Virus record (IMG/VR): IMGVR_UViG_3300046660_000385 | Span: 1-64,000 of that record | Strand: one strand, 5' to 3' | Source: a virus | DNA: 64,000 nucleotides | Part shown: positions 4,631 through 13,877 of the stretch, piece after piece | Position numbering within the stretch: the stretch's first letter is position 1 | Layout: each line of letters begins with the position of its first letter | The notes under the pieces: generated by a model | Seen by the model: only the letters and a program-made list of their open reading frames with translations | The model's database searches: none | Told to the model about the DNA's origin: nothing | Translations under genes and position numbers: made by a program

Positions 4631-5548
4631 TTACCGTGTTTTCAAGAGCTTAGGCAGGTTCTCCTCGACCAGCCGGTGCAGTGCGTCGTAGTCGATATTG
4701 CCGGACACGCGCGCGCCCTCGGCCGTGTACACCAGGCGCACGCCGCCGCCCAGTTCGATGTCCTTTTTCGGCTTGTCGGCGCGCGGGTTGGCCCGCTCCT
4801 CGATCCACGCCGGTACGCTGGCCTGGGTCAGCTTGCCCTTGGCGAGCAGGTCGAGCGCGTCGAGTACCAGCAGCTCGTGCTGCGGACAGTAGGCCTTGAA
4901 CTTCTTGGCCAGGTTGTAGCCGACGATCGTGGGGTGGTCGTCGAGCAGCTGCTGGGCGGCCAGCGGCAGCACGGCGAAGCCGTCCAGCGCCGGGATCACG
5001 GTGCGGTCAACGTTCAGCAGGCGCCCCAGCTCGGTCGCGCTGGTGGCGGCGCCGATCCGGCGCAGCATCTGCGCGTGCTTGTACAGTTCCCAGTCGCCCA
5101 GGTTCCTGCGGTGGGTATTCTCGGTCGTCAGTGCCCTGGCCGCCTCGGCGTCGGACATGGGGCGCACGAACGCGGGGATCTCGTGCCGGCCCAGGTGGGC
5201 GTACGCCTGCAGCCGATGGTGGCCGGCGATCAGCTCGTAGCGGGGTTGGGGGGGTGTGATACTATCACACCCCTCCTGCGGCAAGGCCGCCAGCGGGCGC
5301 ACGATGATCGGGTCGTGCAGGCCCTCGATACGGATGCTCTCGGCCAGCGCTTCTATATAGGCCTGGTCGGCCCGGCCGCGGCTCTGGTAGGCCGACACCG
5401 CGATGTAGTGCAGCTTGAGCATCTGCGGCGGCGCAGTGTCCTGGCCCATCCTGCCGATGATGGTGGTGGCGACGTCGGCCTGCATCTGTTCGCGTGGCCG
5501 GCGCTCGGCCGCGCCCGCCATCAGTTCGCGTTCCTGCTTACTCGGCAT
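4631..5548 (-). CDS. parB: ParB-family partition protein
   Basis: 305 aa. The N-terminal ParB/sulfiredoxin-like CTPase domain is clear: the strand around IIVRPL at 81-86, ELIAGHHR at 105-112 (box II, GHHR replacing GERR) and TENTHRRNL at 142-150 (box III). A helix-turn-helix follows at about 165-190 (SATELGRLLNVDRTVIPAL), then a C-terminal dimerisation region. Residues 93-100 sit in the usual variable loop and are encoded by a perfect 23-bp palindrome that recurs at 7254 (see that entry). The start overlaps the end of parA by 11 bases, as in most parAB operons. It probably binds a parS site and recruits ParA for plasmid segregation. Confidence 0.9.
   Translation of the reverse strand: MPSKQERELMAGAAERRPREQMQADVATTIIGRMGQDTAPPQMLKLHYIAVSAYQSRGRADQAYIEALAESIRIEGLHDPIIVRPLAALPQEGCDSITPPQPRYELIAGHHRLQAYAHLGRHEIPAFVRPMSDAEAARALTTENTHRRNLGDWELYKHAQMLRRIGAATSATELGRLLNVDRTVIPALDGFAVLPLAAQQLLDDHPTIVGYNLAKKFKAYCPQHELLVLDALDLLAKGKLTQASVPAWIEERANPRADKPKKDIELGGGVRLVYTAEGARVSGNIDYDALHRLVEENLPKLLKTR
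5251..5273. repeat. 23-bp perfect palindrome inside parB, candidate parS/operator (copy 1)
   Basis: Arms GGGGTGTGATA and TATCACACCCC around a central C. An identical 23-bp copy lies at 7254-7276. Two perfect copies within 2 kb, both near parAB, are far beyond chance. The natural reading is a ParB (or other HTH protein) binding site. Here it is placed in-frame in the variable loop of the ParB CTPase domain. Confidence 0.75.
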
Positions 5549-6350
5549 GGGCCAGCTCCTCCTCCACGTTCTTGCGGGCCAGCCCCAGCTTGTCCATCAG
5601 CTCGCGCATCAGGCGCACCGTCACGCGCGAGACCGTATGGTCCTTGTCGTACTGCATGATGGTCTTGCCGACCAGCTGGGCCTTCTTGACGTCGGTCGAT
5701 TCCGGCAGCGCGGTCTCGAACACGCTCTCGAACGAGGCCTTCACCTCGTTGGCGACGATCCGGCATACCTGCTTGCGGCCGTCGTGCTTGGTGAGCACGG
5801 CGCCGCCAAAGGTCAGTTTCGGGTTGGCGGTCTTGGCCTGGTGGATGAAGTCGAGCACGTCGTCAGCGCCGATCAGCGACAGCTTGGAGCCGGATTCGAC
5901 CGGCACGATCACCATGTCGGCGGCCGCCAGCGCGTTCGCGCTGAGCAGGCCCAGCGACGGCGGGCAGTCGATCAGGATCACGTCGTAGCCGTCGGCAATC
6001 CGCGACAGCTTCTCGGCCAGCAGGCGCGTGGCGATGAACGGGTTGGCGGCCAGCACCTCGCGTTCCAGGTTCGCCAGTTTCAGGGTCGCGCCGAGCAGGT
6101 GCACGCCGGGGATGCGGGTCTCGGTGATGATCGCCTCGGAGATCGTCGACTGGCCGGCCAGCACGCGCTCGATCGGCCGGGACGGCAGCTCCGCGAAGCT
6201 GTAGATCAGCGCGGTCGCGTGGGCCTGGGGATCGAAGTCGACGACCAGCACACTCAGGCCTTCGCGCGCCAGGGCGTCCGCGCCCGAGGTGCAGAGGAAG
6301 GTTTTGTTGACGCCGCCCTTGTGGTTGACGACCGCTACAATTTTCGCCAT
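5538..6350 (-). CDS. parA: ParA-family partition ATPase
   Basis: 270 aa. Deviant Walker A HKGGVNKT at 10-17 (signature Lys 11 and Lys 16; the usual Gly before the second Lys is Asn, as some plasmid ParAs tolerate), Walker A' VVDFDPQA near 36-43 and Walker B VILIDCPPSLG near 124-134. No N-terminal HTH, so it is the short (type Ib/chromosomal-like) form. It starts at 6348-6350 behind its own promoter region and after the terminator at 6423-6455, and is coupled to parB by an 11-base overlap. It drives segregation of the plasmid prophage. Confidence 0.93.
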   Translation of the reverse strand: MAKIVAVVNHKGGVNKTFLCTSGADALAREGLSVLVVDFDPQAHATALIYSFAELPSRPIERVLAGQSTISEAIITETRIPGVHLLGATLKLANLEREVLAANPFIATRLLAEKLSRIADGYDVILIDCPPSLGLLSANALAAADMVIVPVESGSKLSLIGADDVLDFIHQAKTANPKLTFGGAVLTKHDGRKQVCRIVANEVKASFESVFETALPESTDVKKAQLVGKTIMQYDKDHTVSRVTVRLMRELMDKLGLARKNVEEELAHAE

Positions 6351-6380
6351 GTCAGTAGTGCCTGGTTATTAGAAAGAGGA

Positions 6381-6406
6381 AATTATCTCATGCAGGAGCG
6401 ATAATT
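6381..6406 (-). promoter_or_regulatory. parAB promoter/operator region
   Basis: The 146-bp gap before parA is AT-rich. An inverted repeat AATTATC (6381-6387) and GATAATT (6400-6406) with a 12-bp spacer overlaps a minus-strand GATAAT that could serve as -10; the -35 (TGGTAA) is weak. An operator for ParA/ParB autoregulation is plausible. Inference from sequence only. Confidence 0.45.
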
Positions 6407-6422
6407 ACCACTAAGACAGGGC

Positions 6423-6455
6423 AAAAAAAAAGCCCCGCTGAATAAGCAGCGGGGC
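6423..6455 (-). terminator. rho-independent terminator of the leftward operon
   Basis: On the minus strand, GCCCCGCTG, a 6-base loop, CAGCGGGGC and nine T. A textbook terminator directly after the gene at 6497. It separates the leftward early operon from parAB, so parAB can be expressed independently. Confidence 0.92.
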
Positions 6456-6496
6456 AGGGTATGTTGGTCTGTCCACGGACCAGCAACGATTCTACC

Positions 6497-7129
6497 TCAT
6501 GCGGCGCTGGCCAGGTACATCGCGGTCAGCGCATCGCGCAGTGCGTCGACGTCGCCGTTGACCAACAGCGGTTCCTGGCCGATGCCGCGCAGGATCTGCA
6601 CGGTCTTGCCGTTGGCGCGGCGGGTCATGACGATCACCTTGTGGTAGGCGCGCAGCGATTCGAGCGCCTTCATCGAGTCGGCCGCGTCCAGCAGCAGCAG
6701 CTTGAACTCCTTGCCGAACTCGTTCTCGATCATGCGGTGGTGGATCTGCGGCAGCGCGATCACGGCCACGCGGCGGCGGAACGCCAGCGGCTCATTGCCG
6801 GCCGGGGCCGGCGCACGCTGCACCGGCGGCACCAGCTGCACCGCCGGCGCGGGCGCCTCGACCGGCGCCGCCAGCGGCGCGGGCGCCGGTGCGGGTGCTT
6901 CCTCCCCGCGCAGGCCGGCCAGCCAGCCCGGATACCCGCCGAGGCGCCACAGATCCCACTTGCCGATCAGGGCGGCCATCGCGCCGTCGGCGTCGGTGAT
7001 CCCCTGCTGGGTCATGAAGTCCTTGATGTCCTTGCGCAGCGCCAGGCCGTAGTCGGCCCACTCGGCTTCTTCCTGGCTACGGTGCACCTGGCCGTCATCG
7101 GACACGTATGCGGTAATCGCCTTTGCCAA
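6497..7129 (-). CDS. hypothetical protein with Pro/Ala linker
   Basis: About 210 aa. A helical N-terminal domain (to about residue 75) and a C-terminal alpha/beta domain (RRRVAVIALPQIHHRMIENEF onward) are joined by an Ala-Pro-rich linker. I prefer the TTG at 7127-7129 because AGGAGA lies 6 bases upstream; an ATG at 7142-7144, which overlaps that Shine-Dalgarno, would add five residues. The gene has its own promoter-like sequence and the second 23-bp palindrome upstream, and ends at the strong terminator. Its place next to parA hints at a maintenance role. No family recognised. Confidence 0.72.
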   Translation of the reverse strand: MAKAITAYVSDDGQVHRSQEEAEWADYGLALRKDIKDFMTQQGITDADGAMAALIGKWDLWRLGGYPGWLAGLRGEEAPAPAPAPLAAPVEAPAPAVQLVPPVQRAPAPAGNEPLAFRRRVAVIALPQIHHRMIENEFGKEFKLLLLDAADSMKALESLRAYHKVIVMTRRANGKTVQILRGIGQEPLLVNGDVDALRDALTAMYLASAA

Positions 7130-7206
7130 AACGTCTCTCCTCATGCGGGATGGTCGTCGCGCCAGCCCTGCCCGCTCCCGGCCTGGTGCGTTTTCATTGC
7201 GGCGAA

Positions 7207-7235
7207 AACATACTCGCAGGACCATAGTATTGCAA
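7207..7235 (-). promoter_or_regulatory. minus-strand promoter upstream of the 6497-7129 gene
   Basis: TTGCAA (7230-7235), 17-bp spacer, TATGTT (7207-7212). The 23-bp palindrome at 7254-7276 lies 18 bp upstream of the -35, where a bound regulator could touch RNA polymerase. It sits in the 156-bp gap before the gene at 6497-7129. Confidence 0.5.
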
Positions 7236-7253
7236 CTTTGGAACTTTGTGGAG

Positions 7254-7276
7254 GGGGTGTGATACTATCACACCCC
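7254..7276. repeat. 23-bp perfect palindrome, candidate parS/operator (copy 2)
   Basis: Identical to the copy at 5251-5273: arms GGGGTGTGATA/TATCACACCCC around C. This one is intergenic and is followed on the plus strand by six T, so it resembles a terminator there, but no plus-strand gene leads into it. It is more likely a protein-binding site. Confidence 0.75.
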
Positions 7277-7285
7277 TTTTTTAGC

Positions 7286-7831
7286 TCAGCGCGGGTAGGC
7301 GCGCAGCACGCGTTCAAGGCCTGGCCGGCACTCCTTGAACTCCGGGCACAAGCCGCCACGGTAGACGCACTCGGGCACCATGTAGTGCGCCAGGTCCGGG
7401 TCGATCTCGGCCACCGCATTGCGCACGCGGCGCCAGGTGGCGACCGTCTTGCCCGACGCGTTGTAGCACAGGCGCTTGCGGCTCATGGTGATGAGGGCCT
7501 GGGCGTTGACCAGCATGCCGTGGTTGACCGGCGTGTTGCGGGTGACGACGTCGTCGCCGGCGCCGCCGCGGTCGTCGCGCATGCTCTGGACAAAATGCTC
7601 GACGCCGTGTTTGTGGCGCACCAGGTGCACCGACACGAAGGTCGGGATGGCGGCCAGCTCGATCCAGAACATCCTGGCCCGGATCGGGCTGTGCTCGGTA
7701 CGATACCAGGCCTTCAGTGGCGCCTTGACCGGCTGGCCGTGCGTGGTCATCTGGGCCGCGCGTTGCACGAGGCCCAGGTCCGTGACCGGCACGATCTTGA
7801 TGACGCGCCGGGCCGGCGCACCCGTCTCCAT
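7286..7831 (-). CDS. ThyX-like (flavin-dependent thymidylate synthase fold) protein
   Basis: 181 aa. The core IPTFVSVHLVRHKHGVEHF followed by VQSMRDD resembles the ThyX signature strand and motif (RHR-x7-S), but here it reads RHK-x8-S. The later segment, NAQALITMSRKRLC and ASGKTVATWRRVRNAV, matches the ThyX C-terminal substrate-binding helices, and it ends PECVYRGGLC. ThyX makes dTMP from dUMP with FAD and methylene-folate; phages use it for nucleotide supply. The altered motif leaves activity uncertain. ATG at 7829-7831 overlaps the upstream stop. Confidence 0.62.
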   Translation of the reverse strand: METGAPARRVIKIVPVTDLGLVQRAAQMTTHGQPVKAPLKAWYRTEHSPIRARMFWIELAAIPTFVSVHLVRHKHGVEHFVQSMRDDRGGAGDDVVTRNTPVNHGMLVNAQALITMSRKRLCYNASGKTVATWRRVRNAVAEIDPDLAHYMVPECVYRGGLCPEFKECRPGLERVLRAYPR

Positions 7832-8082
7832 CAGGCCGGCTGCAGCGGCGTGTACAGCAGCGCGCGCAGGTCGTTGATCGACAGGCCGGTGGCGTCGTGC
7901 GACTTGATGAGGAAGGTGGCCGACACCGGCAGGTGGCCGTGGCGCATCTTGCTGATGACCGGCGGCTGCACGTCCATCACGCGGCACAGGGCGGCGTCGT
8001 TCTTGCAGCCCAGGATCTCGAGCAGCTTGTCGAGCAGTGCCTTCGGGTTCTGGGTCTGCGGGTCGGGTTTCTTGCGTGGCAT
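7831..8082 (-). CDS. small helix-turn-helix protein
   Basis: 83 aa. After a basic N-terminus (MPRKKPDPQTQN), helices LLDKLLEILGCKNDAALCRVM and PPVISKMRHGHLPVSATF fit a lambda-repressor-type HTH (recognition helix around PPVISKMR). The C-terminus SINDLRALL completes a five-helix bundle typical of small phage XRE-like proteins. A perfect AGGAGG lies six bases before the ATG at 8080-8082. Likely DNA binding; target unknown. Confidence 0.72.
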   Translation of the reverse strand: MPRKKPDPQTQNPKALLDKLLEILGCKNDAALCRVMDVQPPVISKMRHGHLPVSATFLIKSHDATGLSINDLRALLYTPLQPA

Positions 8083-13040: not shown

Positions 13041-13077
13041 ATTAAAGTCTGACTTTAATTTACAAGGGAAACTTTGA
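13041..13077 (-). promoter_or_regulatory. leftward (pL-like) promoter/operator
   Basis: Positions 13051-13077, read on the minus strand, match 23 of 27 bases of the right-hand element at 13959-13985. TTGTAA (13060-13065) can serve as -35; the -10 is weak (AATAGA near 13038-13043). A perfect 19-bp palindrome, ATTAAAGTC-T-GACTTTAAT (13041-13059), overlaps the promoter. Further AAACTTT half-sites follow to about 13100. Expected to control the whole leftward operon. Confidence 0.7.
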
Positions 13078-13247: not shown

Positions 13248-13877
13248 CTAGAGCGCTCCCTGTTGCGCCACGACTCTGCCGATGGTCTTGACGGCGGTGG
13301 CCGGCACCAGCTGCTCGGGCATGTTGGCGCGGTCGGCGCAGACCCGCACCATGCCGTCGAGCTGGATGAACAGACGGCGCACCTTGAGGCCGGCCGGGGT
13401 GTCGAGCAGGAACACCTTGTCGTCCTTCAGCTCGGTCTGCTTCAGGTCGATGAGCAGCTGGCTGCCCATGTTCATGCTGTCGTCCTCGTTGATGAATACG
13501 CGGCAGTGTTCGGGCGCGACCCCGAGCGTATGCAGGAAATCCCTGCGATAGGCAAAGCTGTTGTGGTCGTCGGCCAGACCGCCAACTTCGTGGTGATGTT
13601 GCACTGCTATGCCCCCTTCCTTATCGGTCCCTAGCAACCTTACCAAGGTATATTTTTCCGCTAATGGAACATTAACATCAATTCCCGCTGACAAGTATTC
13701 CGTTGTTGTTTTTAATACTTCTGCAATTGTTTTCAACCGATGATACGACGGCATCGCTTTAAGTTCCTCCCACCCATAGACGGCCTGCTGCGTCACTCCA
13801 CACAGATCTCCTAGTTGCACACGACTCAGTTCTAGTTCCTCACGGCGACGCTTTATGCGGTCATGGATCGTTGGCAT
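13248..13877 (-). CDS. CI-like repressor (XRE HTH plus S24 peptidase domain)
   Basis: 209 aa. HTH at about 18-40 (SRVQLGDLCGVTQQAVYGWE). The C-terminal S24/LexA-type domain has Ser 134 in EDDSM and Lys 165 in AGLKVRRLF, the likely Ser-Lys dyad for RecA-stimulated self-cleavage. Flanked by the two inverted operator copies, it is the lysogeny repressor. The first 90 or so codons (13610-13877) are clearly AT-richer than the rest and use different codons, so the DNA-binding half looks exchanged by recombination. ATG at 13875-13877. Confidence 0.9.
   Translation of the reverse strand: MPTIHDRIKRRREELELSRVQLGDLCGVTQQAVYGWEELKAMPSYHRLKTIAEVLKTTTEYLSAGIDVNVPLAEKYTLVRLLGTDKEGGIAVQHHHEVGGLADDHNSFAYRRDFLHTLGVAPEHCRVFINEDDSMNMGSQLLIDLKQTELKDDKVFLLDTPAGLKVRRLFIQLDGMVRVCADRANMPEQLVPATAVKTIGRVVAQQGAL

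Follow-up and report, generated by a model that had tools for sequence, protein, structure and literature searches.

A putative parS palindrome within the coding sequence of a phage parB, diverging together with the other copies in each genome

The par locus and its palindromes

The window under study comprised 64,000 nucleotides, taken from the first position of a 117,858-bp viral record which encodes phage terminase, an SU10-type portal, major head and baseplate proteins and a CI-like repressor. Its minus strand carries an operon of gene X, which has no family match, parA and parB (Table 1). ParB matched PF02195 (E 2e-13), with Noc, Spo0J and ParB as its best sequence and fold matches and KorB also among the structures matched, and putative CTP-binding motifs (GHHR-like and ENTHRRNL) were read in it by eye; ParA matched PHROG 164 (E 3e-53) and AAA_31, and its gene overlaps parB at 5538-5548. 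Several features of a ParABS system were found here, namely a ParB_N domain with a helix-turn-helix (HTH), an adjacent Walker-type ParA in the same operon and a palindromic site at or near the par locus, present in few copies per genome. The ParB_N fold, the HTH, the short ParA without HTH and the palindromic site liken the locus to the chromosomal-type ParABS of the Noc/Spo0J/ParB CTPases; however, the site is phage-borne and differs from the conserved chromosomal parS TGTTTCACGTGAAACA both in sequence and in the odd symmetry of its centre.

Table 1. Features of the par locus in the window.
Feature	Position	Strand	Remark
parB	4631..5548	-	305-aa ParB/Noc-type protein: ParB_N CTPase fold, HTH, C-terminal domain; proposed palindrome binder
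HTH of ParB, residues 171-193	4970..5038	-	181/182 align with Caulobacter S172/R173 (by inspection)
Loop of ParB, codons ~92-100	5249..5275	-	Low-confidence loop between predicted strands 81-86 and 103-108, housing the palindrome; residues 92-95 pLDDT < 50
parS-like palindrome GGGGTGTGATA-C-TATCACACCCC in parB	5251..5273	.	Codes for loop GCDSITPP; position and codon phase shared by all 10 distinct phage ParBs
parA	5538..6350	-	Partition ATPase of the Walker type, 270 aa, no N-terminal HTH
Gene X, first gene of the operon	6497..7144	-	No family match; start codon inferred
Candidate promoter TTGCAA-17-TATGTT	7207..7235	-	18 bp from the second palindrome; sequence reading only
Second exact palindrome copy	7254..7276	.	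Upstream of the promoter of the geneX-parA-parB operon

An earlier note on this DNA had described two identical palindromes, one lying in frame in the CTPase-domain loop of ParB and the other 18 bp from a promoter, and each part of this description was confirmed. The 23-mer GGGGTGTGATACTATCACACCCC is present in two exact copies with only the centre base unpaired, where the chance expectation was 0 in 100 dinucleotide-preserving shuffles. The copy in parB spans residues ~92-100 (EGCDSITPP), and in the AlphaFold2 model of ParB (mean pLDDT 79) the residues encoded by the palindrome form the least confident stretch. The other copy ends 18 bp before the TTGCAA of the minus-strand promoter.

The scan for the 23-mer which that note had proposed was run on the whole record and revealed further copies at 105857 (exact), 105043 (1 mismatch) and 103892 (2 mismatches), all three belonging to a second parAB locus whose ParB is 64% identical to that of the window. 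This locus lies in a second, 70-85% identical version of window positions 1-20002, with its own parAB and three palindromes (G000:C1:98641-117848). We infer that the record holds a circular or permuted genome of ~98.4 kb (genome A) followed by part of a related one (genome B). The record is probably a chimera assembled from two related phages, or else a tandem arrangement. A diverged copy, GGCGTGATACTATCACGCC (3 mismatches), overlaps the stop codon of an endolysin-like gene (G000:C1:91337-91359). If the first genome closes at ~98.4 kb, this site (~91340) is 12,333 bp from the site in parB, and the same site-to-site distance (56880 minus 44547) separates the two in the near-identical contig G001; because the diverged site recurs there at an equal distance from parB, it may be a weaker, third parS. 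Further along the record, past the window, one ORF of 7,229 aa (G000:C1:68360-90049) encodes a giant polyvalent phage protein, which combines pyrophosphatase, LPD1, LPD39 and strawberry-notch helicase domains.

Conservation and concerted change among phages

Relatives of ParB were collected from further viral records and from one Oxalobacteraceae contig. Whether homologous ParBs keep the loop had been left as a check, and it turned out that every one of the 10 distinct phage ParBs (nine share 54-70% identity with that of the window) has it and carries a palindrome there, between the VRP and YELIAG segments and always with the palindrome centre on codon position 2. The loop peptides vary from phage to phage (GCDSITPP, ECYTITPP, GCNSITP, GCHTMTPP, SGHTMST), yet 90.9% of the cells in the in-gene palindromes were paired and 16 changes on both sides were counted, against 4.7 in shuffles; the pairing signal collapsed in slid-register controls. 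Comparison indicates that the in-gene palindrome is conserved at the DNA level, because the encoded peptides differ while the DNA remains palindromic. It is not universal even in this ParB clade, since the KH32C and G1071 ParBs, which have short loops, are without an in-gene palindrome; an imperfect GGGGTGTCCAAATTGTACACCCC follows parB in G1071.

Such constancy of position bears on the notion of a mobile palindromic repeat that inserts into genes and has no partition function. Copies do stand in coding as well as intergenic positions, as this would predict, but the constant position and codon phase across all phage ParBs, the concerted divergence described below and the presence of only 2-3 copies, all at par, make such a repeat extremely improbable.

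Each phage has 1-2 further copies closely preceding gene X and/or parA, and within a phage the arms of these copies are the same, or nearly the same, as those of its in-gene copy. The arms read TGTGA in the window, G001, genome B and L024, TGTTA in L014, L019 and L021, TGTAA in L018, TGTCA in L020 and TGGACA in L016 and L017, the last being mixed, with an outermost copy of the TGTCA type against TGGACA elsewhere. Whole-record scans of the viral records that matched the exact motif placed it at par loci only, bar one diverged copy, and a control scan of viruses with the reversed pattern gave 0 matches. The only genes common to all motif carriers are parA and parB. Comparison demonstrates, besides the conserved site and its position, that copies within a genome change in concert and that the site is tied exclusively to parAB. 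Among the sequence-specific DNA-binding proteins that could read the site, ParB alone is present in every carrier; gene X is evidently not the palindrome binder, because it is missing from several relatives that retain palindromes.

A second thought in the earlier note, that the copies might prove to be a common terminator-like repeat unrelated to par genes, did not hold up, as the motif in this phage family occurs at par loci only and the look-alike hairpins found elsewhere come without ParB. It is true that T6 follows the 7254 copy on the plus strand and that an RNA stem, be it of a terminator or of a regulatory mRNA hairpin, would also show compensatory changes in its arms. Nevertheless, the side and the presence of the T-run differ among relatives, none occurs at the in-gene copies, and a hairpin would need neither shared arms at different sites of one genome nor fixed bases persisting across phages, all of which leaves an RNA role barely credible. 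An intrinsic terminator, taken as a hairpin with a downstream T-run in conserved orientation, was rejected on the same varying orientation and absence of T-runs. Viral contigs that matched by the motif only (L006, L007, L009, L025 and others) carry single hairpins and no ParB relative.

The arm changes were also compared with the recognition helix of ParB, using an alignment of 14 ParBs (~10-14 related sequences). Residue 181, just before the helix, ranked 3-4 of 223-283 columns in association with arm position 5, the top-ranked column being a residue encoded by the palindrome itself. Serine at 181 goes mostly with C, aspartate mostly with G, and asparagine or histidine with A or T; as exceptions, L021 retains D181 with a T arm, and L017 has copies of two arm types. 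R182 is otherwise invariant and is lost only in G756, which is also without G at arm position 3. The equivalent residues of Caulobacter ParB, S172 and R173, contact parS (PMC7383237). That the arm changes partly track the recognition helix is only suggestive, because the tree shows the sequences to be related.

Relatives on plasmids and the identity of the binder

Outside the phages, the plasmid-like Oxalobacteraceae locus L022 has only parA (56%) and parB (38%) in common with them. Its parB coding sequence is without the motif; directly after the gene, GTGTCATNNNATGACAC is repeated four times, ~118 bp apart, with degenerate copies further on. A position directly after parB is the classic one for a plasmid centromere. 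Around this locus, neither gene X, the small HTH gene nor the repressor was found. The earlier note had offered another HTH protein as the possible owner of the site, and in this phage the CI-like repressor (13248-13877) or a small HTH protein (~7831-8080) would be eligible, both genes being conserved in most relatives. This alternative fails because the neighbouring HTH genes are missing where the motif and parAB persist, as around L022 with its motif array. In addition, a different palindrome, ATTAAAGTNNGACTTTAAT, ~190 bp past the repressor gene, is constant in its arms across several relatives, in contrast to the par palindrome, which varies; we regard an operator of another HTH protein as very unlikely. 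The palindrome past the repressor gene (window 13041-13059, ATTAAAGTCTGACTTTAAT), with its arms kept in several relatives, is a candidate repressor operator.

On plasmid p2 of Robbsia andropogonis (ParA 49%, ParB 32%), the same loop of ParB holds two GCCACANTGTGGC palindromes, 35 bp apart and in different reading frames, and the plasmid has no other GCCACANTGTGGC in its 206 kb. The plasmid-like Burkholderiales contig G756 likewise carries AGATTTACATTGTAAATCT in that loop and ACATTTACAATGTAAATGT a few bases past the parB stop; its TTTACANTGTAAA is present in two copies in the 4.3-Mb genome, in the ParB loop and just after parB, and the 13-bp core was found nowhere else in the 4.3 Mb. A region scan of plasmid ParBs from Acinetobacter, Moraxella, Mycetohabitans, Cupriavidus and Pseudomonas revealed no comparable in-loop palindrome, and candidate sites in the flanks of several of these loci; the VarioGold and Aval ParBs are much larger proteins. 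Downstream of parB on Vogesella plasmid NZ_CP085531 (L076:6116-6691), 16 tandem GTGTGCTAATAGCACAC spaced 37 bp apart form a candidate parS array, with arms that resemble those of the phage site; three copies lie between parA and parB in pCAR1. When ParA-linked loci in viral contigs were surveyed, in-gene copies of an array motif were found only in the repABC-like L149 and in L144/L146. The former has a repABC-like parS in the first codons of its ParB homologue (L149:6890), and the latter a two-copy palindrome near the start of parB (L144:6905 and 6944).

The palindrome is very probably parS, that is, a centromere-like loading site for the phage's own CTPase-type ParABS. This reading, proposed in the earlier note, gained strong support from the fixed place of the palindrome in 10/10 phage ParBs and the way its sequence shifts in step with that of the other copies a phage carries, from parA and parB being the only genes common to all carriers and from the motif array just after parB in L022. 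ParB might instead bind the palindromes mainly as transcriptional operators, in the manner of a KorB-like auto-repressor, with the true centromere elsewhere. One copy does always lie a short way upstream of the operon's first gene, and KorB is among the structures resembling ParB. The in-gene copy, however, sits 1.2-2 kb downstream of the promoter, as a centromere might; the L022 array and the double in-gene copy of Robbsia look centromeric, and these par loci yielded no further motif-like site. We consider a mainly operator role improbable, and the operator and centromere roles of the palindrome are compatible.

Proposed mechanism and significance

With the palindrome taken as parS, the ParABS system presumably maintains the prophage as a low-copy plasmid; no tyrosine integrase was detected in the record, in keeping with a plasmid prophage. 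We infer that ParB binds the site and acts in clamp loading, partition and autoregulation: dimers of ParB would recognise both palindrome arms through the HTH, and, by the mechanism known for the family, CTP-bound ParB would close as a clamp, leave the site, spread on flanking DNA and be moved by ParA. One loading site would lie in parB, housed in a flexible beta-hairpin of the CTPase domain, a loop that tolerates many peptide sequences, and one or two more would lie ahead of the par operon; bound there, ParB probably also autoregulates the operon. The in-gene site may be a roadblock, or a candidate self-contained centromere travelling with its reader. Site and reader being in one gene, they would therefore travel together in mosaic phage genomes and could co-diverge into new specificities.

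The earlier note had held that a centromere embedded in the gene of its own binder would be notable. Comparison supports such an arrangement here, but it is not unprecedented (PMC4442127, PMC4492784). B. subtilis parS-359 lies inside parB (spo0J) (PMC4442127), and the phage site, as a putative ParB loading site within its own parB coding sequence, resembles it; in contrast to the near-universal chromosomal parS of B. subtilis, it is lineage-specific, occupies a disordered loop and has diverged among the phages. The repABC locus of R. leguminosarum pRleTA1b also has parS in the coding sequence of its ParB homologue, repB (PMC4492784), as does L149, where the site GTTGACGGCCGTCAAC is even, conserved and near the RepB N-terminus, whereas the phage site is variable and in the CTPase-domain loop. 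Dispersed centromeres are known from N15, RK2 and pMF1, some pMF1 sites lying in ORFs (PMC3235114); these systems share with the phage the use of few separated palindromic sites for one ParABS but, unlike phage ParB, have no reported conserved ParB insertion that co-evolves with the site. We found no report of a parS in a ParB CTPase-domain loop co-diverging with it, in a search that covered few subscription journals. What is new here is the putative centromere housed in a dedicated loop of ParB and co-evolving with ParB.

We tentatively propose, with rather less than even confidence, that the loop is a dedicated centromere-hosting insertion whose peptide has the job of letting the DNA encode parS; that clamps load within transcribed parB, coupling partition to autoregulation; and that, with the reader and its site in a single gene, phage partition systems can change specificity (incompatibility group) in both at once.

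In a group of phages and plasmids where we found no centromere described, the palindromes now provide candidates. Synonymous recoding can abolish the putative in-gene centromere with ParB unchanged, a clean test of one parS in place. The family bears on the question of how a DNA-binding protein and its site come to change specificity jointly. Because one gene holds both reader and site, with at least five natural arm types and accompanying changes in the HTH, the specificity code of ParB would be directly testable in this family.
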